In this document: positions 7,196 to 59,175 of the stretch, piece by piece
How positions within the stretch are numbered: the stretch's first letter is position 1
Layout of the letters: every line of letters begins with the position of its first letter
NCBI GenBank assembly: GCA_012845835.1
Contig: JABAKD010000019.1
Span: forward strand, 8,977,584-9,041,583
DNA: 64,000 nt
DNA from: Undaria pinnatifida
Taxonomy: Eukaryota > Sar > Phaeophyceae > Laminariales > Alariaceae
Reading direction: 5' to 3'
Translations under genes and position numbers: made by a program
Notes under the pieces: generated by a model
The model's input: the letters and a program-made list of their open reading frames with translations, nothing else
What the model was told of the DNA's origin: nothing
Database searches by the model: none

Positions 7196-7300
7196 TATTA
7201 ATAAACCGTTATTTCTATTCTGTGTACCCAACGACATCATCATCAATCAGTACACCGTGCTGATTCTTCATCCTAAACAGATGCAAATTCTGTCGTCACC
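7196..7300 (-). repeat. LINE 3'-end fragment (older subfamily)
   Basis: About 105 bases match the terminal block of the degraded LINE at 2,555-2,672. They have 'aataaaccgttattt', 'cccaacgacatcatcat', 'gtgctgattcttcatcct' and 'attctg.cgtcac'. A short SINE-1-like 3' piece ('gaagaaggga', 'ctgtgaccac') follows at about 7,325-7,372. From there to 7,865 I see nothing recognisable. Confidence 0.65.
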
Positions 7301-7867
7301 TATCTATCCGCGATGAAAATGAACGGAAAAGCACCGGGGGAAGAAGGGAAAGGGAAGACCCTGTGACCACGATGGTTTGTGTGCAAATGGTCGCTGAGGG
7401 TAAATAATCATCTTACGACTTCAGCTGGAGAATAACCGGTAAACCTCAGAATATTACCAAACAAAGTTGGTGAGAGACGCCCGTATATGAGGACTCTGGT
7501 GCCCCGACGTACTGTATCGTCCGTCAAAAGAGGCAACATAATGTACTTCGCCTTCTTGCATGTTTTGGTCATCCCTTTGAAATCTCTCATCTATCTTTTA
7601 GCTGTCAATCGTTACTCTTTTATTCAGTCGGGCAGATATTGAGAAAGTACCGTGAGGTCGGAGGAAACAGAAAAGAAGGCATGTGAATGAAGACCATTTA
7701 TTTATCAATTATCTACTAATAACGCAAAAATTATTGGATCCCTAATTTCAAGGGGTTTATCTCGAAACCGTAGGTAGGTGTGACCCTAAAGTGGCTAAAC
7801 ACCTACCTGATAATATAACAACGCCTTTGGCTCCATGGAAAATACAGGGCGTACAAAATCGTATAGT

Positions 7868-12114: not shown

Positions 12115-15100
12115 ATGTGTGTGTGTGTTCTTCACATTAAACCGTTCTTCTACTCGTCGACATCCAGCACACCCAGTGTCCGTACTGATTCTTCACCCTA
12201 GAAAGATCAGCTCTGTGGTCACAAGCCACGACACAGAGATAATGCATCGTAATGCATTCGACAACGCAATGTCATGCCCTAGTACTGGGTACGACAGGCA
12301 CAACATACATACGTCAGCAACAGAAATACATTGGAAGAGAGAAATACGAAATAAACAAAAACAAAAACAAAAACAAAAAACAAAAACAAAATAAGAAAAC
12401 AAATAAAAACAAAGATAAAAATAAAACAAAAAATGAAACAAACAAAACGAAGGGGAAATCGAAGAAACAACCCAACCGGAGAGGAGAGCCAAAGCTCGGA
12501 AAAGAAACACAATAAAATGAAATAAAATAAATTAAAGTAAAACCAAAATAAGATAATCCGAACACGAGCCAAAAACCTGGACACGCAAGGAGGGAACAAA
12601 GGGGAAAAAAATACCCCAGAAAAAGACGAAAAGTGCTATGTACCTACTAGTCGGCCTGGTACCTTGCTACCCTGTCTGCCATCTCCTTCCTGCCTTCGTC
12701 CACCGCGGTCTCCCTTCTATTCCTCCTGTTGCCCCCCCTGCCCCCATTCCCTTGGACGGCTTTCCTTCTACTCCTCCTGTTTCCCCCCCTCCCCCCTTTG
12801 TGTTCTTCTCATTAAACCAAAATACCTTGTAAAAGAGAGAAACAACGAAAGAAACCAAGACAAAATATATAAATAAATAAATAAAAAGGGGAGCCAAAGC
12901 ACGGGAGATAGAAACATACCCCGAGCATGAGCCAAAATGGACATGCAAGGGGGAAAGAAAGGAAAAAATACCCCGGAAAAAAGAAACAAGTAAAAGAAGG
13001 AAGACTGGGAGGGCCAAATAAAACAGGCTCGTCACCTACCCGCCATGCAAGACTCCCTTCATAAGGATAAGAAGGGGAAAGAAAAAAAAGAAGAAGAAGA
13101 AAAAAAATAAATTCACGGAAAAATCAAAGTACCAAGACATCACATTCCGAGCAGCCGCAGCAGTTGGCGGTACGAGTGGCATAGATAGAAAGGTTCCACC
13201 TACTAGTCGGCCTGGTACCTTGCTACCCTGTCTGCGGTCTCCTTCCTACTTTCATCTACCGCGGTTTCCCTTCTACTCCTCCTGTCCCCCCCCCTGCCCC
13301 CATACCCTTGTGCGGTGTTCCTTCTACCCCTCCTGCTGCCCCCCCTCCCCCCGTTCCCTTCGACACCACCCACGGCGGATGCGCGGCGCTGTCTACTTAG
13401 CTTTGCCTCATCCTCGTGCCACCTGCCCATGAACCGTTCAGCTGCTTCGAGGACCCCCCGGTACCACTTGCCCACCTTTTTGGCTGCAGTGGGCCACAGC
13501 GCGGTCCCAACTCCAAAAACTAAGGGGGAGTGTTCCGTTGATCCCTCGTTGGCTTTGAACACCCTAAGGTCCTCAGCTATGGCTCTAGGCCAAGTCTTGA
13601 GTTGTCCGCCTGGTTTCGGGTTCTCCCCACCAGCGATCGCCCCGAACATCAACCGACGGGGCAGTCGCCCCTTGTGTTGTCGCACCAGGGCCCCGGCAAA
13701 GAAGAGCCGCCGTTTACGGATGGTCGTTTCGATGCTCTCGCATCGTGTCATCCTGAGGGCCTTCGCGTACGAGAGGGTGGTGTGGTCGGTGCGTAATCGG
13801 CGCTGGAAGCCAATGACTCGCAAAAGGACTTCGTGGTGGGCTGATCGGAGCTTGGCGAAGTGGTCCGCATTGAGGGTCCACGTCACACACCCGTACAGCA
13901 GGGTCTCAATGACCTCGGCCTTCAGCATGCGGACTTTCAGACTAAGCGGGGCGGTCGTCCTGTCATACAATTCCGGGCCAAACCGTTTGAGGCATGCCCG
14001 CATGAGACGGATCCGTCGTTCGATTTCGAGCGAGAGGTCAGCGCTTTCGTGGATAATGCCGCCTAGGTATAAAAACTGGGTCGTCTGTTTATACCTCTGG
14101 CCTGATGCTTCGATCGCGAGCGGTGGGGCGAGGGCTGTCTGGTCCGGTGTTCGTAGCAGCATCGTTTCTGTCTTCTTTTCCGATACCGTGAGGCCTGCTG
14201 CTTCGAAGACAGTCACGATGACTGTCATCATTTTAGCAAGGCCTTCCGCCGACTTCGAAACAATTCCTGCGTCATCTGCGTACAACATGCCCCACACAGC
14301 CCTTTGCACGCATGCCAACGGTTCCTCTTTTCCGACTGCACTGCCCTCTTCGAGGTGAACCAAATCCCTCACGATGCTTTCGTCTTTGCTGAAGCGTACC
14401 AGCACGACGTGTATCGCAGCAGCGAAGAACACGTTGAACAGTAACGGTGATAGCACGCAGCCTTGCCGCAGCCCCTGGGTGACATTAAACCAATCCGAGT
14501 GCTCGCCGTCATCCGCACGCACGCGAGCCCGCATGCCTTCGTGGAAGTTGCGGATAACTGTAAGCATCTTGGTTGGTACGCCAAGGCGTGTGAGTACCTC
14601 CCACAACAGTTCCCGGTCGACAGAGTCGTACGCTTTCTGCAGATCGATGAAGCACATGTACAGGGGGATTTTCCTCTGTCGTCCGAGCTCTTGCAACCGG
14701 CGCACGACAAACAGCATGTCGACCGTCGACCGTGCGGGACGGAAGCCGCACTGTTCTTCAGGAAGTATTTCCTCGGTCTCGCAGTAGTTGCTAAGGCGGG
14801 ATGCAACGATTTTCAACAATATTTTGCCTGCGTGGGCAACAAGCGAGATCCCTCTGTAATTGTTGCAATCAGTTCGATCCTTTTTTTTGTGAAGGGTCTT
14901 GATGATAGCATATTTCCATTGCTGGGGGACTTCGCCCGTTACCCACACGTTGACGAGGATATTGTAAAAACACTGGACGAAAGCGGGGTGGTCAAGTTTT
15001 AGTAGTTCGACCGGGAGACCGTCTGGTCCAACGGCTTTCCAATTTGACATGCCCTTAATCGCATCCATCATCTCGTCCATGGATGGTTCATCTCCAAGCG

Positions 15101-16136
15101 ATAGTTTAAGCGGTCGCGGTGGCAAGAGGTCGATGATCGTGGGATCGAGTTTCAGCGATTTCGTGTTCAAGAGTTTGTGGTAGTGCCCCGCCCATCGTTC
15201 ACGAATTCGCGCTTGATCCCGCAACAACGTGCCATCCTCGTCCATAATAAACTGCTCGCTCCTCGCTTTTGTACCTTGCAATCCCACCGTACTCTTCAGG
15301 TGCTTGTAGAACCCTCGTTGATCGTTACTCGCTAGGAGTCTCTCGGTTTCGGCGAGGTACTCTTCAAAGTACGCTTGTACTCCTGCGGCAACCACTTCCT
15401 GCAGATTCGCACACGCAGATCTCAATTTCTTCCACGCTACACTATCTCGGGGGTTGGCACGCAAGAACTGTCTCGCATCCTCCCTCGCTGTCCATGCTAC
15501 TCTGAAAGCGGCCGAAGTTTCGGCAGGCTCGCACCAACCATGCCGGCGGTGGCGACGTGGTGGAGGTGGCACCTCTTTCTCTACAGCATCGATGATAGTC
15601 GTGGTGAAAAACTCAACCATGCCAGACGTGTTACGGGGCTGGATAGGTTGGTTGAGAGTGGAAACAACCCTCGCGATTACTCGTTGGCGACGCTTTCCGT
15701 CGGATAAAAAAAGCTGCCTGTCGAATTCTCGGCGTTTTGGGAGTTTCAGCATTTTTCGGTTGGACGAAAAGTGACCACTAAGTCGGACCTTGATGTACAC
15801 AATGTTGTGGTCTGAATCGGCCTTAGCTGGTGGCGGAGGCTGTGGGATGACTTTAACATCATGTACTCTAGGTCGATGGGCTTGGCGGGTTAGGATGTAG
15901 TCTATCCTCTTACGGTCATTCGGGCTGGTGCCGTTGTACGTATGCGATATCCCACCCTTGCGCGTGCTGAAAAATGTGTTGGTGAGAGCTAGCTTGCAAT
16001 TGGTAGCGAACGACAAAAGTCGTTTGCCATTATCGCTACGAGCATCTCGTCCGTATGCTCCAAGCACCCTACTTTCATCATCACCGCACCCTTCCATCCT
16101 CTGCCCAGTTCGCGCGTTAGCATGGTCAGGCATGGC
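12115..16136 (-). mobile_element. Young non-LTR retrotransposon (LINE), 5'-truncated, with 15-bp TSD
   Basis: The element is read on the minus strand. Its 3' end is a CA microsatellite (plus-strand TG repeat from about 12,116), and its 5' end lies at about 16,136. The flanks are a perfect 15-bp direct repeat, TGTTCGATTACACAT, at 12,100-12,114 and 16,137-16,151. This is the expected product of target-primed reverse transcription. It has a reverse-transcriptase frame with no stop, then a ~1.1-kb 3' region made of two related modules in tandem (about 13,270-12,800 and 12,800-12,116). Related tails lie at 4.8, 7.9, 27.9, 29.0 and 53 kb. The 5' truncation lies inside the endonuclease domain. Confidence 0.93.
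12116..13275 (-). repeat. Tandem 3' modules of the LINE
   Basis: Module 1 runs on the minus strand from about 13,275 to 12,797 and module 2 from about 12,800 to 12,116. Each has, in order: a G-rich 'aggagtagaagg' coding-tail segment, 'gcagacagggtagcaaggtacc' with 'ggccgactagtaggt', 'ggggtatttttt', 'cttgc.tgtcca', 'ttttggctc', a T-rich tract, and a terminal TTTAATGNGAAGAACACA. Module 1 therefore ends with a fossil 3' terminus (12,797-12,818), and module 2 repeats the end of the coding frame. Confidence 0.8.
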
Positions 16137-16208
16137 TGTTCGATTACACATGTAGACGTATTCCACATGTACACATAATAACCAGGCTAAGGGCACCCAA
16201 AACGCCAA
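13203..16208 (-). CDS. LINE polyprotein: partial APE-type endonuclease plus reverse transcriptase
   Basis: The frame has 1,001 codons without a stop. Residues 1-24 come from flanking DNA and the target-site duplication, so the start codon does not belong to the element. Residues ~25-145 are the C-terminal half of an apurinic-type endonuclease (RIDYIL at 101-106, SDHN at 132-135), and the N-terminal catalytic half is missing. The reverse transcriptase follows: NYRGISL near 450, CGFRPARST near 487, [12 protein letters not shown] at 520-531 (motif A), [10 protein letters not shown] at 579-588 (motif B), YADD at 643-646 (catalytic) and FLYLGG near 712. The tail is rich in GG, RR and RR-N words and ends in VARYQAD. 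It would copy element RNA at nicked target DNA. Endonuclease and RT words look closest to the RTE clade. This copy cannot be autonomous, because the 5' part is lost. Confidence 0.93.
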
Positions 16209-37704: not shown

Positions 37705-39178
37705 GTTGACCCTGATAGCTACACTGTAGTTGTAAGGGGAGTCGCCGACCTATATCCTTAATGAGGACACACAACTCGTAATGCGCGCGATCGGAGTATC
37801 ACACACAGCTTGCAAAGATGAGTTTCGACGAAATCTTCGATCTCACAGCTGGAAGTGTATTTTCATTTTTTATAATATATGCATATATATGGCCCCTTCC
37901 CACCCCCCCCCTCCAAACCTGCTCGCTTTTGATCAAAACCAGGCCCCCTTTCCCTTCACAGCTGTCAGATTTTGTCCCCCTCAAAAACGGGTTTTATTGT
38001 TTCCGCGCACAGACTGACTAAAATCATCCTGTTGACCCTGATAGCTACACTGTAGTTGTAAGGGGAGTCGCCGACCTATATCCTTAATGAGGACACACAA
38101 CTCGTAATGCGCGCGATCGGAGTATCACACACAGCTTGCAAAGATGAGTTTCGACGAAATCTTCGATCTCACAGCTGGAAGTGTATTTTCATTTTTTATA
38201 ATATATGCATATATATGGCCCCTTCCCACCCCCCCCCTCCAAACCTGCTCGCTTTTGATCAAAACCAGGCCCCCTTTCCCTTCACAGCTGTCAGATTTTA
38301 TCCCCCTCAAAAACGGGTTTTATTGTTTCCGCGCACAGACTGACTAAAATCATCCTGTTGACCCTGATAGCTACACTGTAGTTGTAAGGGGAGTCGCCGA
38401 CCTATATCCTTAATGAGGACACACAACTCGTAATGCGCGCGATCGGAGTATCACACACAGCTTGCAAAGATGAGTTTCGACGAAATCTTCGATCTCACAG
38501 CTGGAGTGTATTTTAATTTTTATAATATATATATTACCCCGCCCCCCTCCAAACCCGCTCGCTTTTGATCAAAACCAGGCCCCCTTTCTCTTCACAACTG
38601 TCAGATTTTGTCCCCCTCAGAAACGGGTTTTATAGTTTCCGCGCACAGACTGACTAAAATCATCTTGTTGACCCTGATAGCTACACTGTAGTTGTAAGGG
38701 GAGTCGCCGACCTATATCCTTAATGAGGACACACAACTCGTAATGCGCGCGATCGGAGTATCACACACAGCTTGCAAAGATGAGTTTCGACGAAATCTTC
38801 GATCTCACAGCTGGAGTGTATTTTCATTTTTTATAATATATGCATATATATGGCCCCTTCCCCCCCCCCCCCTCCAAACCCGCTCGCTTTTGATCAAAAC
38901 CAGGCCCCCTTTCCCTTCGCAGCTGTCAGATTTTGTCCCCCTCAGAAACGGGTTTCATAGTTTCCGCGCACAGACTGACTAAAATCATCCTGTTGACCCT
39001 GATAGTTGCACTGTAGTCGTAAGGGGAGTCCTCGACCTATATCCTTAATGAGGACACACAACTCGTAATGCGCGCGATCGGAGTATCATACACAGCTTGC
39101 AAAGATGAGTTTCGACGAAAGCTTCGATCTCACAGCTGGAGTGTATTTTCATTTTTTATAATATATTACCTGGTATGG
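37705..39178 (-). repeat. Satellite of family B units, about 325 bp each
   Basis: Unit starts at GTTGACCCTGATAG fall at 37,705, 38,031, 38,357, 38,667 and 38,992, giving lengths of 326, 326, 310 and 325, then a partial fifth unit. Units 1 and 2 are nearly identical. Unit 3 lacks about 16 bases around 'atatatggcccc'. Each unit is one family B monomer in reverse: AT-rich head, C-rich spacer and 'tttccgcgcacagactgactaaaatcat' in pieces. Confidence 0.93.
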
Positions 39179-47254: not shown

Positions 47255-47360
47255 TTCGTTTGTTGATCCCTACGAAGCGTGGAGGGCTCACCCGTTGAGC
47301 GAACAGTAGTGGGGTAGTGAAGTCACCGGTATGAAGACAGGTAAAATACGTATATGAATA
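47255..47360 (+). repeat. Dispersed repeat R-G, left part
   Basis: 'gttgatccctacgaagcgt.gagggct.acccgtt' in pieces, continuing to 'gtgaagtcaccggtatgaagaca', matches 58,838-58,925 at high identity. The right part resumes at 48,850. Confidence 0.75.
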
Positions 47361-48849
47361 TACTTACTAACTTCTTTCTGCTGAAAGTGATTGGTTGGTG
47401 CATCCCTGGCATTTCCGGGGTCGGACTACTTGCGGAACGGTCCAGCTTTTCTTTGGTTTCTTGATCGGCCTTTATTGTTTTTGTTTCTGCTCGTTTTGCC
47501 AGTTGTTTCTTGCCCTGTCAGCTGCTTCCTGCAAATTTGGTTTTCTGCCAACACGAGTTTGAACCTTTTTTCGCGTTTATTTCTCCCTTTTGTTTCAGTA
47601 AAAGTGAAACTTCCTACCATTTGACGCTTATTTGCCGCCTGTGCATTACTTGCGGAACGGTCATTCTTTAGCTTTTCTTTGCTACAATGTGTTTTGTACA
47701 TGGTACGAAGTTGCATCAGATGAGATATCGCCCAGCACCCCACCGCAACGCTATAGCTCAGCAGCGCAGCGCCGTGCAGTGCCGTGCCCTCGATGCCCTG
47801 CCGTGCCCTGCAGCTCAGCTCTGTAGCACACCGCAGCGCTAGCTCAGCAGAGCGTAGCGCCGTGTGCTTTGCCGTGCTTCGCCATGCTGCGTGCTTTGCT
47901 GTACTTTTACTAGTTCGTACATACAAGCCAGTAACATTCGAAGTATCATACAACAAAAATGTACATAAACCAGGTTTGTACATATTACGTTGTTGGATCA
48001 TGAACAATGCACCTCAGCGCAGGTCAGCCCGGCTATATATAGCTCAGCAGCGCAGCGCAGTGCGGTGCCGTGCGGTGCCGTGCCTTGCCCTTCGTTTTGC
48101 GGTGCTGTGTTGTGCGGCGCTGTGCGTTCTTTTGAACATATAGCTGTAGTAGTAGTACCAGGTATGATACAGGAACCAGGTTTATGTACGCATTGTGTAG
48201 TCGTCTTTTGGCTTTCTTCAGTTGATTGTCCTCTCGCGGTCCCCATGCCCCCCCCCCCCCTCCCCCGCAAATAGTATACGTACTGCCGTTCAGAACGTGA
48301 CATGAACAGGCACACAGCACAGCGCAGGACAGTTAGCTCTGCACAAGCACCTCTTGGCATTATTATCAATTTGATGTTCGCACCAAAGAATCGCGGGCCT
48401 CTTCCTGCCCCCTTTACATGTGTGTCAGTTGCATTCTTTCATGCGCGAGCGTAGCGGGCGGCGTCAGCCGCCCGCGGAGTCCTGTGCTTTTTTTAGAACC
48501 ACACAGAGTACCACCAGGTATTAGGCGAAGTACCAGGTACCAGGTGCCGGTAGTGCGTGCGTGTACTCGTCTTTTTGCTTTCGTCGTTGATTTTGTTCTC
48601 CATGTCTGTTCTCTTCGCAATGTTCCCTCGCAAATTACATCCGTACTTCTGCCGATCAGAACGTGACATGGCCGACAAACAGCACAGCACTGACAGGGCA
48701 ATCAGCTCCGCACAAGTAGCTCTTGGCATTATCAAATCGCTAGTTGCACTGAATCATGGGCCTCTTTTTTCTGCCCCCTTCACATTTAGTTGGAATCTTC
48801 CTTGCGCGAGCGTAGCGGGCGGCGTCGGCCGCCCGCGGAGCGGAGCGCT
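47361..48849 (+). mobile_element. Hairpin-ended element (family F) inserted in repeat R-G
   Basis: Its left end is CTTACTAA and its right end GCGCTTG, with TATA on both sides. The ends are not inverted repeats. Eleven bases before the right terminus is a 9-bp-stem hairpin, GCGGGCGGC with a 4-base loop and GCCGCCCGC (48,818-48,839; the loop and first stem base vary between copies). A second such hairpin lies at 48,456-48,477. Internal features are a CTATATATAG palindrome (about 48,029) beside CAGCAGCGCAGCG words and a duplicated 'cttgcggaacggtc'. A terminal hairpin without inverted repeats suggests a Helitron-like element, but the CTTG end is not the usual CTRR. No coding region. Confidence 0.6.
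48115..48845 (+). repeat. Two-unit tandem duplication inside element F
   Basis: Units of about 365 bases (48,115-48,480 and 48,481-48,845) share 'accaggt.', 'gatcagaacgtgacatg' (variant 'gttcagaacgtgacatg'), 'gcacaag.a.ctcttggcatta' and the closing hairpin. Confidence 0.7.
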
Positions 48850-49190
48850 TGTATATATTACGTTGATCCTAGCCAAGGCACCTCGTGGAGAGAAGACTCA
48901 CTCGGTAGAAGAACAACGAGGAGTGACGGCGAAATAGCCAGAGTAATTCCGCCGTCCCGAAATCCCGCTACCATGTAACCAACATATCACTGGAAACCCC
49001 AACTATACTCAACCGTCATCATATCCAAGCATGCAATCAACAGTCTCCCTGCTTCGTAAATGATACGGCATGATGCTATATTATCATATTATCAGGGCAA
49101 AACGATTCAATGAAAAGTATGGTTAATCAATATCCTCCATGTGACAAGAAAATAATATTACAGCATGATAATCCTTGAAAAACACTGCAT
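48850..49190 (+). repeat. Dispersed repeat R-G, right part
   Basis: It matches 58,955-59,165: 'ctagccaaggcac.tcgtgg', 'agaagactcactcggtag', 'cgaggagtgacggcg' and 'ccgctaccatgtaacca'. At 58.9 kb the two parts are adjacent. Confidence 0.75.
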
Positions 49191-49267
49191 AAATCTAGAG
49201 AGAAAATTTAGGGACAGTATCCAACATCAATCTTCGCGAACCAAAGATCTAAGTTGTAAAATCCTAA

Positions 49268-49968
49268 GGGCCGTTCTTATCGGAGGCCTTCTTGTGTCTT
49301 AAATTTCGTAAATCTCCTAAATCTCCTAAATTTCCATATTTTTGTGAAATGTGTTTTAAAATACGGAGACGCTCTGTCATAATTTGTGAAATTCTTCAGC
49401 CCCAAAAAATATGGAAGAGTTAACAATCACAAATTAGGAAATCCTGTCGTTGATTTCCATATTTCGAAGGCAGTGCTCCGACAAGCGCCGTGGCTCAACG
49501 CTGGGACCATCGGGTAGCTTTAAACGTTGACCAGGGTGGTCCAACATTATGACCGATGGAAGGAAACGGCCCGGGCCTCTGGAAGACTCATCCTCGAGTC
49601 TGACAAAACAACGATTCAGCCTTCCCAATTATCCAGACACGAGGCGCAGAAACATGAAGAAGGCTCTCGCTGGTGCCCTCGTCGTGCTCGGCATGATCCT
49701 GACACCAGGGGCTGCTGTCGCCGGATTGCACGAATCTACTTGGCCTGGGTGCTTCGGTTTTCCGGTATGTTCGCGTATGCTTGCTGTGTGACGACGCACG
49801 TGACTGCTGGTGTGGGTGGTGGCGGTCTTGCTTTATGGCTCGGCTTTCAAAAATCAGGGGGGGGAAAGCAAACAACCCCGCGTTCGATAGTATGGCAGAC
49901 GTTTTTCATGAAAATCCTGGAAAAAAAAAGGAAATTTAGGAAATTCACATCTCCGAAAAGAACGGCCC
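49268..49968. mobile_element. Harbinger-like MITE with TAA target duplication
   Basis: The terminal repeat GGGCCGTTCTTATCGGAG at 49,268-49,285 pairs with the reverse of 49,951-49,968 (GGGCCGTTCTTTTCGGAG), 17 of 18 matching. TAA lies immediately outside both ends (49,265-49,267 and 49,969-49,971). A 3-bp TAA/TWA duplication with GG-starting termini is characteristic of PIF/Harbinger elements. Both subterminal zones carry AAATTTCC/CCTAAAT words. No transposase. It contains a signal-peptide exon. Confidence 0.85.
49654..49764 (+). CDS. Captured first exon encoding a signal peptide
   Basis: Inside the MITE, the ATG at 49,654 opens 37 codons beginning MKKALAGALVVLGMILTPGA. This is a textbook signal peptide: a KK n-region, a hydrophobic core, and an AVAG cleavage context. 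A short mature start follows (LHESTWPGCFGFP). The last codon is followed directly by GTATGT (49,765-49,770), a consensus 5' splice site, in phase 0. If unspliced, the frame stops after 8 further codons. It may be a fragment of a host secretory gene captured by the element. The remaining exons are not in the window. Confidence 0.45.
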
Positions 49969-49989
49969 TAAGTCCAAGAACAAAAACTC

Positions 49990-52950
49990 AAATCCGACAT
50001 CCATAGATCGAAAACTCAAATCTGAAATCCAAATTCGAAAACCCGAAAACTCAAACATCGGCTCCATAATCAGCACTCAGCCTTCCTTATTAAACGGCTG
50101 TCAGCTCCATTGAATAGGGCTGCCAACAACTGTGACCGGACAGCAGTCTCAAAACTCGCTTTCAAATTAGGCAAATGCCTCCCGGGTGGGTACGTACTAA
50201 AAATCCATTCAGATTTCAAATGCTGAAATGCAGAGAAAAATAATGTCATACTATTAATAGACAACGCAATCGTGAAAAAGTATTATTTCAAAAGTCAAGA
50301 AACAGTTACTTGCCTCCCTAAATACCATGCACTCTCTTGAAAGTACCAAATCCAGCTAATATATGCAGAATACTCCGTCAAAAGCAATTTAAACCAGCTC
50401 GCGAAAAAGTTAGTCGCCCTCAGGTTCACACGCATCAAACTAGGTTGAGACCTTTTTCCTACTTGACGAGCCTTAATCCTCTTAAGTGGTCAAGCCAATC
50501 CTACCCGGCACAAGCGCTAACAGGTGGGCGTGACCCCTCCTCGCAGAATAAAAACCAAACGATTTGGCTCGGCCTGGTCTCTTTACGGGGCTAGGTGAGA
50601 AAACCATAGACTGATTACGCAGAAATGACGCCGGGTAGTTTACCAAAACCGTCGCCGCCCCCAACTCCCGCAATTCTCATACTTCCTATAACAAAATACC
50701 TGGTACTCCGTATCACGCATCATCGTCGATTCAATACTGGAATGATAACGGAAAATCTATAATGTCATTATCGAACTGTAGAAATAACGAACCTAGCGTA
50801 CTAAATCATGAGATATTCCACCATTCTCCAAAGTCACATGTTCCATCATAAAATCCCGGTGAAGGGAAAGTACCATCTACAGTCTTCCAGTGTACCTTCC
50901 TCGGTAAATTCGTGTACCTAGCCACCGCTCTCATTGCGTTCGCAATGTCCGGACGTGCTGGTTAGCAAGCCACATCAGGCATCCGACCAGCTCACGGAAA
51001 GGCCAGTCGCCCTCGGGTTCAGTCTCATCGAACTCGTCGAGTTTGAGACCTTCCTCGGGCGGGTTTCTCCTACCCGAACAAAAGCATATATCACCATTCA
51101 CCGCAAACCCGGCAAAAATAAATCACTATATTTCAGAGTTGGCATCGAAACCTGTTTGTTCCCGGTATAGTACGAATTCAACCGCGTGTTTCTTTCTATT
51201 TGAGAATACCGATAAATCAGAGCGCAACGCCTCGCTACAGGTGACGACGTTGTTATATCGAGGGTCAAGTTATACCGCATGTTCCTTCCCGGAAGAGCGA
51301 CACGCAGTATCACCGTGCTGCAAGAGTGATAGTCCATGCTGCTACTTGATAAGTTACCGCGATAAAGAAATATCGGCCCTTTAAAGTGTTTGGAAGCCTT
51401 GACTCAAACGCGGATATGGAATACGGTATCAGGTAAACTCCAGCAGTATCTTCGCGCCTGTTCTTCCTCCGGTATAGTGTGGATCGAAACAATGGCATCA
51501 CCTCCCGCGGCGGGCAGTGTTGGCATCCCGTCGCGAATAGGACTGTTTTAGCGTCCTGTATATCCTGTGTTGCTTGTTGCGCCGACACTCGAACTGGACT
51601 ATAACGACGGCAAAGAAGAATAAGGCGTCTAGATACTCTGTAGACTGACCCTTCGTGATTGAGTGGGTGGTGACTTGGTCGAGTTCCCCATTATTTTGTC
51701 TCTTTCGTGGGGAATTTCGGGTTTTTAGTAGTGAGCTTCGGAGGGGTGAACTCGACTAGATGTTGCTTCTTAGGCGTCACAGGGGTGACGTCACTCTGAG
51801 ATCATTCCTATCCCTGTTTCGGATAGTCCAGCAGTATCTTCGCGCCTGTTCTTGCTCCGGTATAGTGTGGCTCGACACAATGGCATTTCCACCCGCGGCC
51901 GGTGTTGCCAACCCTCCCTTGCTTTCTGCAACTGCTTCCCTGGTGCGAGGCCCTTAGTGCATATTTTAGGCCTTTGGCTGGGAAATGGGCGCCTTTATTG
52001 TTTCTCCCATACTCATTTGATACAATTCGTGTCACCCGTCTGCCTCAATACAAAGTTCTGCCCCTTGAGGTCTTGCTCAAGTCTTTGATTGTTTGCGAAA
52101 GCCGCCCTTGACCTACTCTAATCGTTTAGGGGGATTCATTGAATTCCCTCTACCCTGACATCTCCATCCCTACCCGGGCAGACTAACTCCCTTCGACGCA
52201 TGTACGTTGATAAGTTACCGCGATAAAGAAATATCGACTCTTTAAACTGTTTGGGAACCTTGACTAAAACGCGGATATAAAACATACGGTATCAGGTAAA
52301 CTCCATAACAAACGCAGGAATATTGGTAATTTTCTTCTGTATACTCGAAATGCTCGTACCTGATACACTACGTACATGAAACGTTTTAGCACCTGTGGAC
52401 TATAAAACCTTATAATCTACCCCATTCCCCCTGCTCATCATTTTTGGTCCAGCATGCAAGTACCGCTTACCATAACACTCTGCACACGCGCATGATAAGG
52501 GCGGGGGGAGTTGATGGGGCGATCTAACAAAAGGGGGCTAGAACATAATCAAAATCTTATTACCAATCATTGTCATGATAATCATGTCAGACTACAACAA
52601 TATCATATTCATACTTCAGTAGGCATGAAAGGCACAAGATTAGGGTGGAATATTCAATTTAACGAGAAGAGCACATCTCGATATTCCCACCACATATTGC
52701 CTTATAACACGTGAGTAATACTATATTTCCTCACTATCGGTTTCTTCATTTCGTGTACCGCACTATGCTAGATCGCTGTTAAGGTTGACAACCAGCTATT
52801 CTGGAAGTAGCCCGCATTGTATAAGACAACCAAACTGCAAAATACCATGTAGTATGTGGCATCGTCTCTAGTGCCTAAATATCATACTATTATTGTCACT
52901 AACCATACCCCTACAGCCGTCAACCGTCACCAAATTATTTGTAAAACAGG
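49990..52950. other. AT-rich intergenic region with diverged direct repeats
   Basis: No convincing gene. A ~95-bp repeat ('gataagttaccgcgataaagaaatatcg', read in pieces) occurs at 51,344-51,437 and 52,208-52,304. Between them, 'agcagtatcttcgcgcctgttctt' (in pieces) occurs at 51,437-51,500 and 51,829-51,892, the first adjacent to the first outer repeat. Another diverged pair lies at 50,390-50,470 and 50,983-51,060 (the 'agtcgccctc.ggttca' block). The ORFs here are short and motif-free. Confidence 0.5.
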
Positions 52951-52956
52951 ATGACG

Positions 52957-53876
52957 TATATTTGGCCCTCCCAGTCTTCCTTCTTTTACTTGTTTCTTTT
53001 TTCCGGGGTATTTTTTCCCTTTCTTTCCCCCTTGCATGTCCATTTTGGCTCATGCTCGGGGTATGTTTCTATCTCCCGTGCTTTGGCTCCCCTTTTTATT
53101 TATTTATTTATTTATTTATTTATTTTGTCTTGGTTTCTTTCGTTGTTTCTCTCTTTTACAAGGTATTTTGGTTTAATGAGAAGAACACAAAGGGGGGAGG
53201 GGGGGAAACAGGAGGAGTAGAAGGAAAGCCGTCCAAGGGAATGGGGGCAGGGGGGGCAACAGGAGGAATAGAAGGGAGACCGCGGTGGACGAAGGCAGGA
53301 AGGAGATGGCAGACAGGGTAGCAAGGTACCAGGCCGACTAGTAGGTACATAGCACTTTTCGTCTTTTTCTGGGGTATTTTTTTCCCCTTTGTTCCCTCCT
53401 TGCGTGTCCAGGTTTTTGGCTCGTGTTCGGATTATCTTATTTTGGTTTTACTTTACTTTATTTTATTTCATTTTATTATGTTTCTTTTCCGAGCTTTGGC
53501 TCTCCTCTCCGGTTGGGTTGTTTCTTCGATTTCCCCTTCGTTTTGTTTGTTTCATTTTTTGTTTTATTTTTATCTTTTTCTTTTTTTTTATTGTTTTCTT
53601 ATTTTGTTTTACTTTTTTGTTTCTGTTTTCGTTTTTGTTTATTTCGTATTTCTCTCTTCCAATGTATTTCTGTTGCTGACGTATGTATGTTGTGCCTGTC
53701 GTACCCAGTACTAGGGCATGACATTGCGTTGTCGAATGCATTACGATGCATTATCTCTGTGTCGTGGCTTGTGACCACAGAGCTGATCTTTCTAGGGTGA
53801 AGAATCAGTACGGACACTGGGTGTGCTGGATGTCGACGAGTAGAAGAACGGTTTAATGTGAAGAACACACACACAC
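52957..53876 (+). mobile_element. 5'-truncated LINE copy containing both 3' modules
   Basis: It is the reverse of 12,116-13,015, starting at 'atttggccctcccag' in module 1 and ending in the CA microsatellite (53,864-53,876). It includes the internal fossil terminus TTTAATGAGAAGAACACA at 53,172-53,189. The two-module arrangement is therefore inherited and not a private event in the 12-kb copy. No clear target-site duplication was found. Confidence 0.88.
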
Positions 53877-54263
53877 ATATCGTACGAGGTATTTTACTAG
53901 GAAAATACACGACACACAACTACGTCAAACCTTATGTTTCGGGGATGGCGAATTCATGCTCAATTATTTCCCTCGTGGGTGCGTAAGGGGAAATAGTTGA
54001 TTGAAAATGAACCAAAGCACCAAACTGCTGTTGTACATACGACAGACAGAAAATACGGCTGTCGCAAGCAAGCGCTAGCTACTGCTGACATACTCGATTC
54101 CCAACCCGTCAAGCGTCCTGCATCCTGTGCTAGTAACCGGTTAATCAGCAGAGCAATCATACCACGAGCAATCACAGTTAGTTGCTGGTGGTCGGGGCAA
54201 GAGGGGCTGGGGACAACAGGCACGAGCATTTATCCTGCCCGTCCCTCTGAACCAAGCTACTCT

Positions 54264-54395
54264 GTCCTTTGCAATGATGTAATGCGAAAAACAAAGTCTT
54301 GACCGTGAAGAATGCGAAAGAAAATGATCGTCCTTTGCAATGATGTAATGCGAAAAACAAAGTATTGACCGTGAAGAATGCGAAAGAAAATGATC
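54264..54395 (+). repeat. 66-bp tandem duplication
   Basis: Units 54,264-54,329 and 54,330-54,395 differ at one base (c/a in 'aaagt.ttgaccgtg'), so the duplication is recent. Confidence 0.95.
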
Positions 54396-54414
54396 GTCTC
54401 AGACGCAAAGAATA

Positions 54415-54710
54415 ACATGAAGTAAAAATACCAACACTTACCATTATAGTGGACCAAAAATACGACCCTCCAAATAAAAACTCATCTATATTGTATATTA
54501 CAAGTACCAACAACGCAGCTTGCAAAGTTGAGTATTGACCTGAAATTCGTCAAACTCACGGCTGACGTCCTTAAAATTTGTTTATAAAATAACATGTCAT
54601 CGCCACGTCAGTCAAATATTATAAAAATTAAAATACACTCTAGCTGTGAGATCGAATATTTTGTCGAAACTCATCTTTGCAAGCTGTGTGTGATACTCCG
54701 ATCGCGCTCA
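54415..54710. repeat. Repeat R-J (reverse) and a family B head
   Basis: 54,415-54,590 is the reverse of 30,318-30,505. 54,608-54,708 is a ~100-base family B head in the plus orientation, cut at 'ccgatcgcgc'. Confidence 0.7.
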
Positions 54711-55137
54711 AATATTGTGCTAGACTATATAGTTAGCAGTATCATATCGCGACAGCAGTTCATATGATGTATTTCCACACAGCAAAAGTCCACTACCTGC
54801 TGTATCACTCTAGAATCAAGACGAAACTCACACAGAAACAATTGTTCATGACATGACCTGTGATTGTTGCCTTAGTCTGGAGCAAAGGGTGGGAAGGATT
54901 CTCCACCTGGGTGTCCGTGCCTCCCACACCCAGCGTCCTCCACCGCTACCAGCCACCTTGTGCCGACCCCAACCCGGGCCCACACATCAACGGGCTCAGC
55001 AGACAGCGCTCCCACGGGGGACAACAGATACTGCTCGTAATTTAGTTTCACAACCAAATCTTCGGGCCATCCCTTCTCCCCCGTCTCAAACTCCACCATA
55101 TTTTTCACGCCCTGTACAAATACATTATTTGCTATTT

Positions 55138-55558
55138 GTCTGGCAGGCAAATATTCTCTGGAAAACCTGCGCAAATATTTGTCTGGAAGCAAATACTTTT
55201 TTGAGAAGCTGCGCAAATATTTGTCTGGAAGCAAATACTTTCTTGAGAAGCTGCGCAAATATTTGTCTGCAGGCAAATACTTTTTTGAGAACCTGTGCAA
55301 ATATTTGTCTGGCAGGCAAAAAATCTCTGGAAAACCTGCGCAAATATTTGTCTGGAAGCAAACTCTTTTTTGAGAAGCTGCGCGAATATTTGTCTGCGGG
55401 CAAATACTTTTTCAAGAACCTGCGCAAATATTTGTCTGCAGGCAAGTACTCGCTCGAGAAGCTGCGCAAATATTTGTCTGCAGGCAAATACTCTCTTGAG
55501 AACCTGCGCAAATATTTGTCTGGCAGGCAAATACTGCCCTGGAGAACATGCGCAAATA
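55138..55558 (+). repeat. 42-bp palindrome-bearing array, left (10 units)
   Basis: The unit is 42 bp: GAAGCTGCGCAAATATTTG, then TCTGSMRGCAAATACT, then a T-rich link. Each unit contains the near-palindrome TATTTGYCTGSMRGCAAATA. The unit length is divisible by 3 and lacks stops in most frames, so long KYLSGSKYFLEK-type and CANICLEANTF-type ORFs appear on both strands. These are artefacts. Confidence 0.93.
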
Positions 55559-56075
55559 GTATTGTATTTGTCCTGACAACTATTCTGAAAAAACAGCTGT
55601 TACTGCAGGGAGGTCGGAGGGAGAGATTAGCCGTATCATATGTCATGCGATGAGGGATTGGTGTCGGAAATACAAAAGCAAACCCCTGAAGCGTGCATCT
55701 GAAATATCTTTTGATCGGAGTGGAAAAACACAGCATCAGCCAAACCGAGAAAAAATGAAAATCTATCGACTACCTATGAGTCATATTATATACTTGAAAG
55801 AAAGTATTTTTAATATGCAAATGCCATCCCCGTCGACCATTGCCATTTACTTCTTCTGCCATCTACAACAGTCGAAGCCGCCTCACCCCGTACGGAACGC
55901 AAACAAACACAAACACGCCGACGCCACCAAACCCCTCCACCATCTTACTCATTCCGTATCATGAGATGAGTCAACTCCTGTGGCAAAGTACAACAAACAC
56001 CAAGGATCCACAAACACCACAAAGACGTTGCTACTCGTTCTCGCTGCGGGCCTGATCGCCATCAAGCTACTTCTA

Positions 56076-56381
56076 CTATTCCATGCTGTTTAAACGTCCA
56101 CCTCCCCCGACTCCCCGGCGGTGAGGTCCTCCGGGGCAAATGCGCCGTCGAGCTCCTTCAGCCCTTCCACAGGGTCCACCAGTCGCCCGGGGATCTTGCT
56201 TCGCGCCAGCTTCGGTCAGCTTAGGGATGTCCTGAGGGATGAGGTCCAGGTTTCCGTGCACGAACAGGATCATCTCCACGTACTTGCTGTCCGTGGTGCT
56301 CCTGGAGGACGTCATCATACGCCCAGCAGCGCTGAAGTCACGCTCAAGCACTGCCGCCGACGCAGGAGCCCCGAAAATCAC
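56076..56381 (-). pseudogene. hAT transposase C-terminal (dimerisation) fragment
   Basis: The frame reads VIFGAPASAAVLERDFSAAG followed by RMMTSSRS and a hydrophobic EMILFVHGNLDL. This matches the signature of hAT C-terminal domains (small residues, S-A-x-x-E-R-x-F-S-x-A-G, later an L-x-x-x-N). The upstream frame is broken, and no RNase-H-like or BED zinc-finger part is evident, so the protein is defunct. After the domain the sequence becomes GC-rich and low in complexity. Confidence 0.8.
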
Positions 56382-56689
56382 TCCAGCCCAGCTGCGTTGG
56401 CGTCGACAATAACTGGAGCTGCTGCCGACGCGCCAGCTCCGTCGCCAGGTGGCGTACCATCACCATTGCCATTTGCTTCTTCGGTACTGACAGCTGGCAT
56501 GTTGACATGCACAGCCCGCGGTAGTTGCTCGTGCCGTGATGTGGAGCTGGTTTGGTTGTATGCAGGACCACTGATATTCGCGGCGGCAAATACACCGGGC
56601 TCAACTGCCGTATTGATGCATTACGTATGTACCCCATATAATGTACGTACTTGTACGCCGAAGAGGTCAATATCTCCGCATCCGCAATA

Positions 56690-57060
56690 CATTGTTTGCA
56701 GGCAAATAGTTTATTTAGAACCTGCACAAATATTTGCCTGCAGACAAGTACTTTCTTGAGAAGCTGCGCAAATATTTGTCTGGAAGCAAATACTTTCTTG
56801 AGAAGCTGCGCAAATATTTGTCTGCAGGCAAATACTTTTTTGAGAACCTGTGCAAATATTTGTCTGGCAGGCAAATACTCTCTGGGGAACCTGCACAAAT
56901 ATTTGTCTGGCAGGCAAATACTTTTTTGAGAACCTGTGCAAATATTTGTCTGCAGGCAAATACTCTCTTGAGAACATGTGCAAATATTTGTCTGGCAGGC
57001 AAATACTCGCTTGAGAAGCTGCGCAAATATTTGCCTGGAGGCAAATACTGCCCTGGGACA
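56690..57060 (+). repeat. 42-bp palindrome-bearing array, right (about 9 units)
   Basis: It is the same unit in the same orientation as the left array, and it also ends in 'gcaaatactgccctgg'. It occupies the other subterminal zone of the hAT element. Confidence 0.93.
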
Positions 57061-57800
57061 AATACACGCAACTATTGTTTGTATTTGTTATGGATATTTG
57101 TACAGGGTGTGATATTTTTGCCTGCATCAACCATGCCTTGTCCCTTCGTCTCAAACTGCTGCTGCTGCTCCTGCGGCTGCTGCTGTGCAGTGCTCTCGCT
57201 CACAGTCTCAAGTAGCGGGATCACGAGCTGTGACTTCCAAACAGGGGATGGTGCCGCCGGAGGTTGCAGCTGCTGCTGCTGCTTCGGTGGCAGCTGCAAG
57301 TGCTCCTCCTGCTCTTCCCCCCTGATTTCTAATTCCACCATATCTCTGCACGCTTCAACCACCAAAACCATCCGATTTTCCTCCGACTCGAATTGCTGAT
57401 GCTGCGGCTGCGGCTGTGCAGTGCTCTCGATCCCAGTCTCAAGTAGTGGGATTACGAGCTGTGACTCTGACCTGGCCACGCCCGCTCCCCTCTTTTGTAT
57501 GTGACTTTGCTGCAAAATCTCTCGCATTTGCTCCTCTTGTCGTGAAGAGAAGCTGGAGAGCTCCAGGAGTAGTTGCGAGTTCTCGCGAATGATGAAATCG
57601 TTTTCATAAATTCGACCTTCGACTCGGTAGAACGCATCCCGTCCGGCAGAAATCTGGTAGACGGTCCGAAAACCGTAATAAGAAGCACCCTCGATTTATT
57701 TCTCGAGTTGGTCTCTTCTTACGAGCAGTTATTCCAGCCCCCGCATCTTGGCTTTTCGAGGGCTCCCCGCTCTCTCTGCCAACGCTTTCACGTCCACAAC

Positions 57801-58647
57801 TGTAGTGCGTTAGGGGACCGCCGCGTGACGGAACCGCCAGAGCGTTTTTGGGCAACGGGACCGCCGAGCGAGGGGACCGCCAACGGGTTTTGAGCAGCGG
57901 GACCACCGAGAGAGGGGACCGCTAAGAGGTTTTGGGTAGCGGGACCGCCGAGTGAGGGGACCGCCAAAGGCGGTAACGCAGCAGGACAACCGATTTGACT
58001 TGATACTAAAACGTACAGATCTATTTTTAGTACAGATTTTCCTCATGAAATCTACGAAGCATCCGGGCCGAGTTTATACTAAAACGTAGAGATTTTCCCT
58101 ATTAATTTGAAATCCCTATTAAAATTATTGATGAATTTATACTAAAACGTACAGATTTTCCCTATTAAATTTTGATTCGCTATTATATTTACAAGGTATC
58201 CGGACCGAGTTTATCAGATTTTCCCTATTAAATTACAAAAAATATACAGGGAAAATCTGTACGTTTTAGTATATATTTGATAGGGAAAATCTGTACCAGG
58301 TACGTTTTAGTATAAATTTATATGGGGAAATCTGTACCTGGTACGTTTTATTTCAAACTCGGTCCGGATACCTCGTTATCCGAACGCGCATTAAACTTTT
58401 AGTCTAAACGGTATAGAAAAATGAGAAATCTGTACGTTGTAGTATGAAGTCAAATCGGTTGTCCCGCTGCCTTGAAGCCTTTGGCGGTCCCCTCACTAGG
58501 CGGTCCCGCTACCCAAAACCTCTTAGTGGTACCCTCTCTCGGTGGTCCCGCTGCTCAAAACCCGTTGGCGGTCCCCTCGCTCGGCGGTCCCGCTGCCCAA
58601 AAACGCTCTGGCGGTTCCCTCACGCGGCGGTCCCCTAACGCACCACA
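57801..58647. mobile_element. Giant foldback element, almost wholly palindromic
   Basis: The termini TGTAGTGCGTTAGGGG (57,801-57,816) and, reversed, TGTGGTGCGTTAGGGG (58,632-58,647) continue into arms of about 200 bases. The arms are built from 42-bp units (CGGGACCGCC, GAGGGGACCGC and GGTTTTG words). Within the arms, the central ~430 bases are also self-complementary: three ACGTACAGATTTTCCCTATTA-type motifs on the left face their complements on the right. The axis is near 58,224. Flanks are a 6-bp duplication CACAAC (57,795-57,800 and 58,648-58,653). No coding capacity. The superfamily is undetermined. Confidence 0.85.
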
Positions 58648-58837
58648 CACAACGCCTACGTTGACCTCGCCCTCAGGCATGGTTCAAATAAGACACCCAG
58701 CGTGCTCCCTTTCACAGGGAGCGATGTTTGCGTGATATCTCCAGCTAGCTCTCTTCCGCGCAGAAGAGCCTACGTCACTCAACACCCTTTGCTTCGAACA
58801 GGGATAGTTCAGCATACGGTACGCTATAATTTTCGCG

Positions 58838-59175
58838 TGTGTTGATCCCTACGAAGCGTAGAGGGCTTACCCGTTAAGCGAACAGTAGTGGGGTAGTGAA
58901 GTCACCGGTATGAAGACATGGAAAATACGTATGTATATAGACTATGGACTATATATTACGTTGCTACTAGCCAAGGCACATCGTGGAGAGAAGACTCACT
59001 CGGTAGACGAAGAAAAACGAGGAGTGACGGCGAAATAGCCAGAGAATAGTCTCACCATCCCGGCATCCCGCTACCATGTAACCAATATATCACTGGAAAC
59101 CCCTACTATACTCAACCGTCGTCATATCCGTATCATATCCAAGCATACAATCAACAAGTTTCCATTGTCAGATTT
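58838..59175 (+). repeat. Dispersed repeat R-G, uninterrupted copy
   Basis: It carries both parts seen at 47,255-47,360 and 48,850-49,190 without the 1.49-kb insertion, so it serves as an empty site for element F. 58,681-58,837 upstream shows nothing recognisable. Confidence 0.8.

Follow-up and report, generated by a model that had tools for sequence, protein, structure and literature searches.

Does the reading frame at positions 54872–58680 of this Undaria pinnatifida locus belong to a host gene or to a mobile element? A preliminary description of the window, the whole 64,000-nucleotide stretch analysed here (C25:8977584-9041583), had read this minus-strand frame as one host gene that was split by a foldback element and a hAT transposon and was exactly restored at the empty sites. 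We searched the genome (511,146,479 bases in 68 contigs) with the parts of this locus and arrived at another reading, of which we are highly confident: the 'gene' is a frame, ORF290, that belongs to an old copy of a non-autonomous LTR retrotransposon of the Copia type; this copy was later hit by the foldback and hAT elements.

The joined frame consists of a first piece with the ATG (58648–58680), which aligns with the beginning of ORF290 in other copies, a middle piece (57112–57800) and a last piece with the stop (54872–55105), all on the minus strand. Its limits, with the ATG at 58680–58678 and the TAA at 54874–54872, are those of the preliminary description and are supported by the other copies, in which ORF290 has identical limits. 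As had been claimed, the lengths of the three segments sum to 942 bases, or 314 codons, but the joined frame is not open. Two in-frame TAA triplets lie in the middle piece, at codon 33 (57729–57731, minus strand) and codon 44 (57696–57698, minus strand), and the frame is open from codon 45 to the final stop. The restoration of the frame is therefore arithmetic only, and the window copy is a dead one. An altered genetic code, in which TAA would specify an amino acid, was rejected because other copies have sense codons at both sites and themselves end with TAA. The duplicated protein unit that had been described at the second joint is present; it corresponds to a 73-base unit repeated at 90%, of which the second is interrupted by the hAT element.

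The two elements that divide the frame are both ordinary in kind. The foldback element (57801–58647, no strand assigned) has arms that match at 207 of 220 positions and, as previously reported, is bordered by CACAAC on both sides (left copy 57795–57800, right copy 58648–58653). It displays the features of its class, namely long inverted repeats, little else and repetition in the genome, and the matches to this repeat family often stop at query position 1 or 847 (best 40 of 112 candidates). The hAT-like element (55106–57111, no strand assigned), which carries subterminal repeats of ~42 bases, lies between two copies of ATATTTTT (left 55098–55105, right 57112–57119), and here too the preliminary description was correct. 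It resembles hAT transposons in its 8-base target duplication, in its short terminal inverted repeats, which are alike at 16 of 20 positions over the first 20 bases of each end, and in a remnant of the C-terminal dimerisation domain at 56247–56381 on the minus strand (PF05699, E 5e-6, 26.6 bits with a cut-off of 21.4), the match covering profile positions 40–84 of 84, the end of the domain only. It differs from them in that no complete transposase frame was found in this copy. Its middle part occurs at no fewer than 40 places including itself, mostly at 92–98% identity, and two relatives are only 76–78% identical (best 40 of 66 candidates).

The same sequence occurs elsewhere in the genome without the two insertions. 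Fifteen other copies with long flanks were retrieved together with the window's own locus for comparison of the segments, and in these 15 the left, middle and right segments are contiguous and lack the foldback and hAT elements, several of them with small gaps or indels. For the empty-site test, the inner 70 bases of each flank were placed separately in 36 distinct other copies, which were chosen as the best matches to the left and middle segments rather than at random. In 35 of the 36 copies, the flanks of the foldback site share exactly 6 bases, as many as the duplication is long; in L030 the overlap is 0. The hAT site is clean in only 14 copies, with an overlap of exactly 8 bases in 13 and of 7 bases in one; four of these 14 (L015, L031, L035 and L036) form a row with a spacing of ~25 kb and probably do not count as independent cases. 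Among the 22 copies in which the hAT site is not clean, 18 have an overlap of 56–64 bases, which fits copies that miss ~48 bases there, such as L050, and the remaining four have overlaps of 225, 241, 1963 and −160, so that the site is not cleanly present. These empty sites bear out the proposal of two independent precise insertions. The preliminary description had also held that its reading would fail if no homologue ran continuously across the joints; such homologues exist, and they uphold the joints but count against a host gene.

The left segment, which is the last piece of the frame, and the middle segment were each found at a minimum of 39 places besides the window (best 40 of 239 and best 40 of 260 candidates, respectively), most of those of the left segment at 91–94%; the claim of one gene does not hold. 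In the window, the frame is part of an old LTR retrotransposon copy on the minus strand that spans 47258–59156, as delimited by piecewise BLAST of the copy L050, and that was broken by later sequence; its flanking 5-mers, AAACT and AACCT, are alike at four of five positions. The 5′ LTR (58837–59156, minus strand) starts with TGTTGATT as in other copies and recurs directly oriented in other loci and, within the window, at 48852–49042 and 47257–47364. In other copies, homology tends to stop at 59156 on its right-hand side, and the terminal piece recurs in direct orientation several kilobases off in a number of loci. The 3′ LTR, also on the minus strand, is split by a 1.5-kb break (47365–48851) into a first part at 48852–49042 (K2P to the 5′ LTR of 0.077 over 191 sites) and a second part at 47258–47364 (K2P of 0.099 over 108 sites), and its end is CG instead of CA. 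The order within the copy is LTR, ORF290, spacer, pol remnant and LTR; the remnant, the end of a Copia pol (50827–51122, minus strand; RNase H by eye), was matched by tblastn of the L050 frame in two pieces with 52% and 41% identity. A further insert, which ends in inverted repeats and is flanked on either side by CTAAG, occupies 49269–49966 (no strand assigned), and extra sequence, not all of it verified as insertions, lies around 54420–54727, 52962–53876 and 51443–52206.

Young copies of the element allow its structure to be described. L050 and L053 have two direct LTRs with TG...CA ends, and the LTR pairs are 100% identical over 288 bases and 99.65% identical over 287 bases, respectively. 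The K2P divergence of 0.077–0.099 between the LTRs in the window, compared with 0–0.35% in L050 and L053, shows that the window copy is old, and it is much interrupted. Target duplications of 5 bases flank L050 (CGTGT), L053 (CATCT) and L039 (CAATG); a clear one was not evident in L048 or L041. Once bases that coincide by chance with the duplication are removed, the LTR measures ~286 bp and the L050 element ~4.77 kb. TGG, as the start of a primer binding site complementary to the 3′ end of a tRNA, was not seen directly behind the 5′ LTR in the copy edges inspected by eye. In both L050 and L053, the 5′ LTR is followed by a short leader and then by an open frame of 290 codons that begins and stops where the joined window frame does. 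A genome search with ORF290 gave at least 155 matches (135 of 2014 candidates scored), and ORF290 is complete (residues 1–290) and stop-free in 30 of the 155 matches listed.

The preliminary description had suggested that dN/dS be computed on the segments, and we compared the observed values with a simulation that used the observed transition share and allowed no stops. Pairs of intact copies gave a dN/dS of 0.29–0.82, two of nine falling below the 5% line, and four close pairs gave 2.11 (1 silent and 7 replacement changes). For the part of the window's middle piece that follows the second TAA, comparisons with five intact copies gave 0.44–0.60 (8, 0, 3, 5 and 62 of 500 simulations), and four of these five comparisons, which are not independent because the window sequence is common to all, fell below the 5% line. 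The last piece, by contrast, gave 0.56–1.05 and showed no sign of selection. The signs of selection are thus mixed and partial; past constraint on the middle part of ORF290 is probable, which is not proof.

A single-copy host gene disrupted twice could draw on this low dN/dS of the middle piece, on the exact frame boundaries and on the precise joints. Against it stand the 39 or more other places of each tested segment, the position of the sequence directly behind an LTR and between two LTRs, and the two TAA in the joined frame. We consider this reading highly improbable and reject it on the grounds of copy number and LTRs. What had been described as a host gene is the reading frame at the 5′ side of an LTR retrotransposon present in many copies, and this corrects a likely mis-annotation, in which a frame mended across two transposons resembled a new host gene.

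The protein encoded by ORF290 consists of an N-terminal part that is coiled-coil-like by eye, glutamine-rich repeats, among them the duplicated unit, and a C-terminal part that is conserved. A comparison with Pfam gave no match above the cut-off (KBP_C only, with E 0.05) and no gag model, and a comparison with the PDB gave a best E of 0.96 with the single protein and of 0.018 with a profile, neither of which is meaningful. The single match in NCBIfam (E 0.03) is a chance one, and no relative was found in the viral contigs searched (599 pattern matches). At the level of titles and the beginnings of abstracts, the Undaria literature contained no description of this element, and nothing was found on the Undaria assembly together with 'Copia'; we do not claim that the element is unpublished.

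The relation to Copia emerges from the second frame of L050 and from one genomic neighbourhood. The second frame, of 157 codons, was named Copia-type RNase H (RH) by eye; Pfam and PDB searches with it gave no matches. Its residues 44–148 match many genome frames of ~471 aa, one of which lies at C38:5247455. Approximately 4 kb upstream of this position is an open frame of at least 733 codons (L058) with Retrotran_gag_2, zf-CCHC, Pol_BBD and rve, and farther upstream (L059) is an LTR that, in this one Copia element on which the comparison rests, is 96.9% identical over 290 bases to the L050 LTR, with LTR and leader together 95.7% alike over 392 bases. ORF290 does not follow the leader at C38, where only ~430 bases, 209 of them unread, lie between the shared leader and L058. 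Because its LTR and leader are near-identical to those of a Copia element that does not carry ORF290, the ORF290 element looks like a non-autonomous Copia passenger. The series Gag-PR-INT-RT-RH is not complete in ORF290 elements such as L050. Support for the assignment to Copia comes from the C38 domains (Gag, CCHC, Pol_BBD and rve) and from the position of rve before RVT_2 in L044.

Element ends were also compared across the genome. An 18-base junction, made up of the internal end and the start of the 3′ LTR, occurs 202 times in the genome, and its reversed control 0 times. On contigs C1–C28, 13 of 16 RH remnants of the L050 type and 13 of 21 Copia-like RH frames at least 400 aa long have this junction no more than 3 kb downstream; the strand-flipped control gave 0 in both cases. 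Of 48 RH remnants, 36 have ORF290 no more than 7 kb upstream, compared with 1 of 39 long frames, counted among the ORF290 matches listed with the weakest rows left out, and its rarity upstream of long Copia frames in this set is only suggestive. The two element types do not separate cleanly, since two loci carry ORF290 followed by gag or gag-pol. L004 (440–3221) has an intact ORF290; its sequence follows L050 as far as element base 1655 (96.8%) and from there on follows L058, which it joins within gag (95.3%). In the older L044 (4168–9900), ORF290 is broken, and gag-pol sequence containing zf-CCHC, Pol_BBD, rve and RVT_2 comes after it. Neither L004 nor L044 was found to contain the N-terminal region of Gag that is seen in L059. 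Template switching between helper and passenger RNAs may explain these chimeras.

The nested transposons are ordinary. For ORF290, we give slightly less than an even chance to the reading that it represents a Gag, or the N-terminal portion of a Gag, that has diverged very far, and that the element is an ordinary gag-only passenger. ORF290 occupies the position at which gag should begin, and it replaces the N-terminal part of Gag in L044 and L004. However, tblastn against the C38 Gag gave E 3.6 (2.9 with the upstream piece), a profile comparison aligned 17 glutamine-rich columns only, with a probability of 41%, and no Pfam gag model matched. It is possible, if rather unlikely, that the retrotransposon captured a host gene or part of such a gene long ago and has carried it since as ORF290. 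No donor was seen among the matches listed, though one could hide among thousands of element copies; the capture of a gene would agree with the lack of a Pfam match above the cut-off, of a PDB match below E 0.01 and of a relative in viral contigs, and with the fact that no resemblance to the partner Copia's Gag was detected. We regard as doubtful a further interpretation, in which ORF290 would be a new retroelement accessory protein, neither Gag nor Pol, that is kept under selection by a helper-dependent Copia element for packaging or copying by the helper and that was exchanged with the N-terminal part of Gag in the chimeras L004 and L044.

Known elements offer partial parallels. TR-GAG elements are defined by a recognisable GAG domain in a single ORF, and LARD elements by the absence of coding capacity. 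The ORF290 element shares with both types its dependence on a helper and LTRs like those of an autonomous family, but by these definitions it fits neither, and ORF290 showed neither a Pfam gag match nor similarity to the partner Gag. The closest parallel to a gag-only passenger comes from Ectocarpus, where Copia-N1_Ec32 and Copia-11_Ec32 are, in the description given of them, Copia families with a single ORF that is partly like gag (PMC12477816). As far as that description goes, these families and the ORF290 element are both brown-algal Copia LTR elements with one ORF behind the 5′ LTR, an incomplete pol and a need for a helper, and they are set apart by the partly gag-like ORF of the former, whereas ORF290 has no detected similarity to the one partner Gag compared. 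Maize Bs1, the model for a captured gene, is likewise an LTR element with a non-standard ORF, but its pieces are described as coming from known host genes (PMC13317346, in the account given there of Bs1), whereas ORF290 has no known donor.

For the non-autonomous Copia-type element that we favour, the history of the locus can be outlined as follows. The foldback and hAT elements inserted into ORF290 of an existing retrotransposon copy, each duplicating its own target, and further sequence broke the rest of the copy, including the 3′ LTR. ORF290 elements in general would be copied in trans by the proteins of the Copia family that has nearly the same LTR and leader and does not carry ORF290. The ORF290 protein might conceivably benefit the element, for instance by helping to package RNA or by taking the place of the N-terminal part of Gag, and such a role in retrotransposition is testable. 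The locus thereby provides a clear case of nested insertion in a kelp, with many empty sites available for comparison, and a modest novelty in the form of a repeated 290-residue frame that has no recognised domain and apparently rides on a Copia family.

Several minor observations concern the distribution of the element and the remainder of the window. Copies at C22:372307, 395418, 420266 and 445605 are spaced ~25 kb apart in a row, probably as a tandem segmental duplication. Contig C30 (27.5 of 511 Mb) holds 10 of the 30 complete stop-free ORF290 copies among the matches listed (expected 1.6, P ~2e-6) and 2 of the 40 best-scored places of the middle segment (expected 2.2); as a guess, young copies may pile up there in a low-recombination or sex-linked region. 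In L050, a direct repeat of ~125 bases (7196–7319 and 7326–7449, 86% alike) lies behind the pol remnant. Rfam and tRNA scans of the window gave no matches. A 66-base unit inside the retrotransposon is directly repeated at 98% at 54264–54395, and a stretch of ~95 bases at 54612–54710 has many copies in the window, including a series at 37782–39164 spaced ~320 bases apart. A 1001-aa open frame with a reverse transcriptase domain (PF00078, E 1e-34) occupies 13203–16208 on the minus strand.
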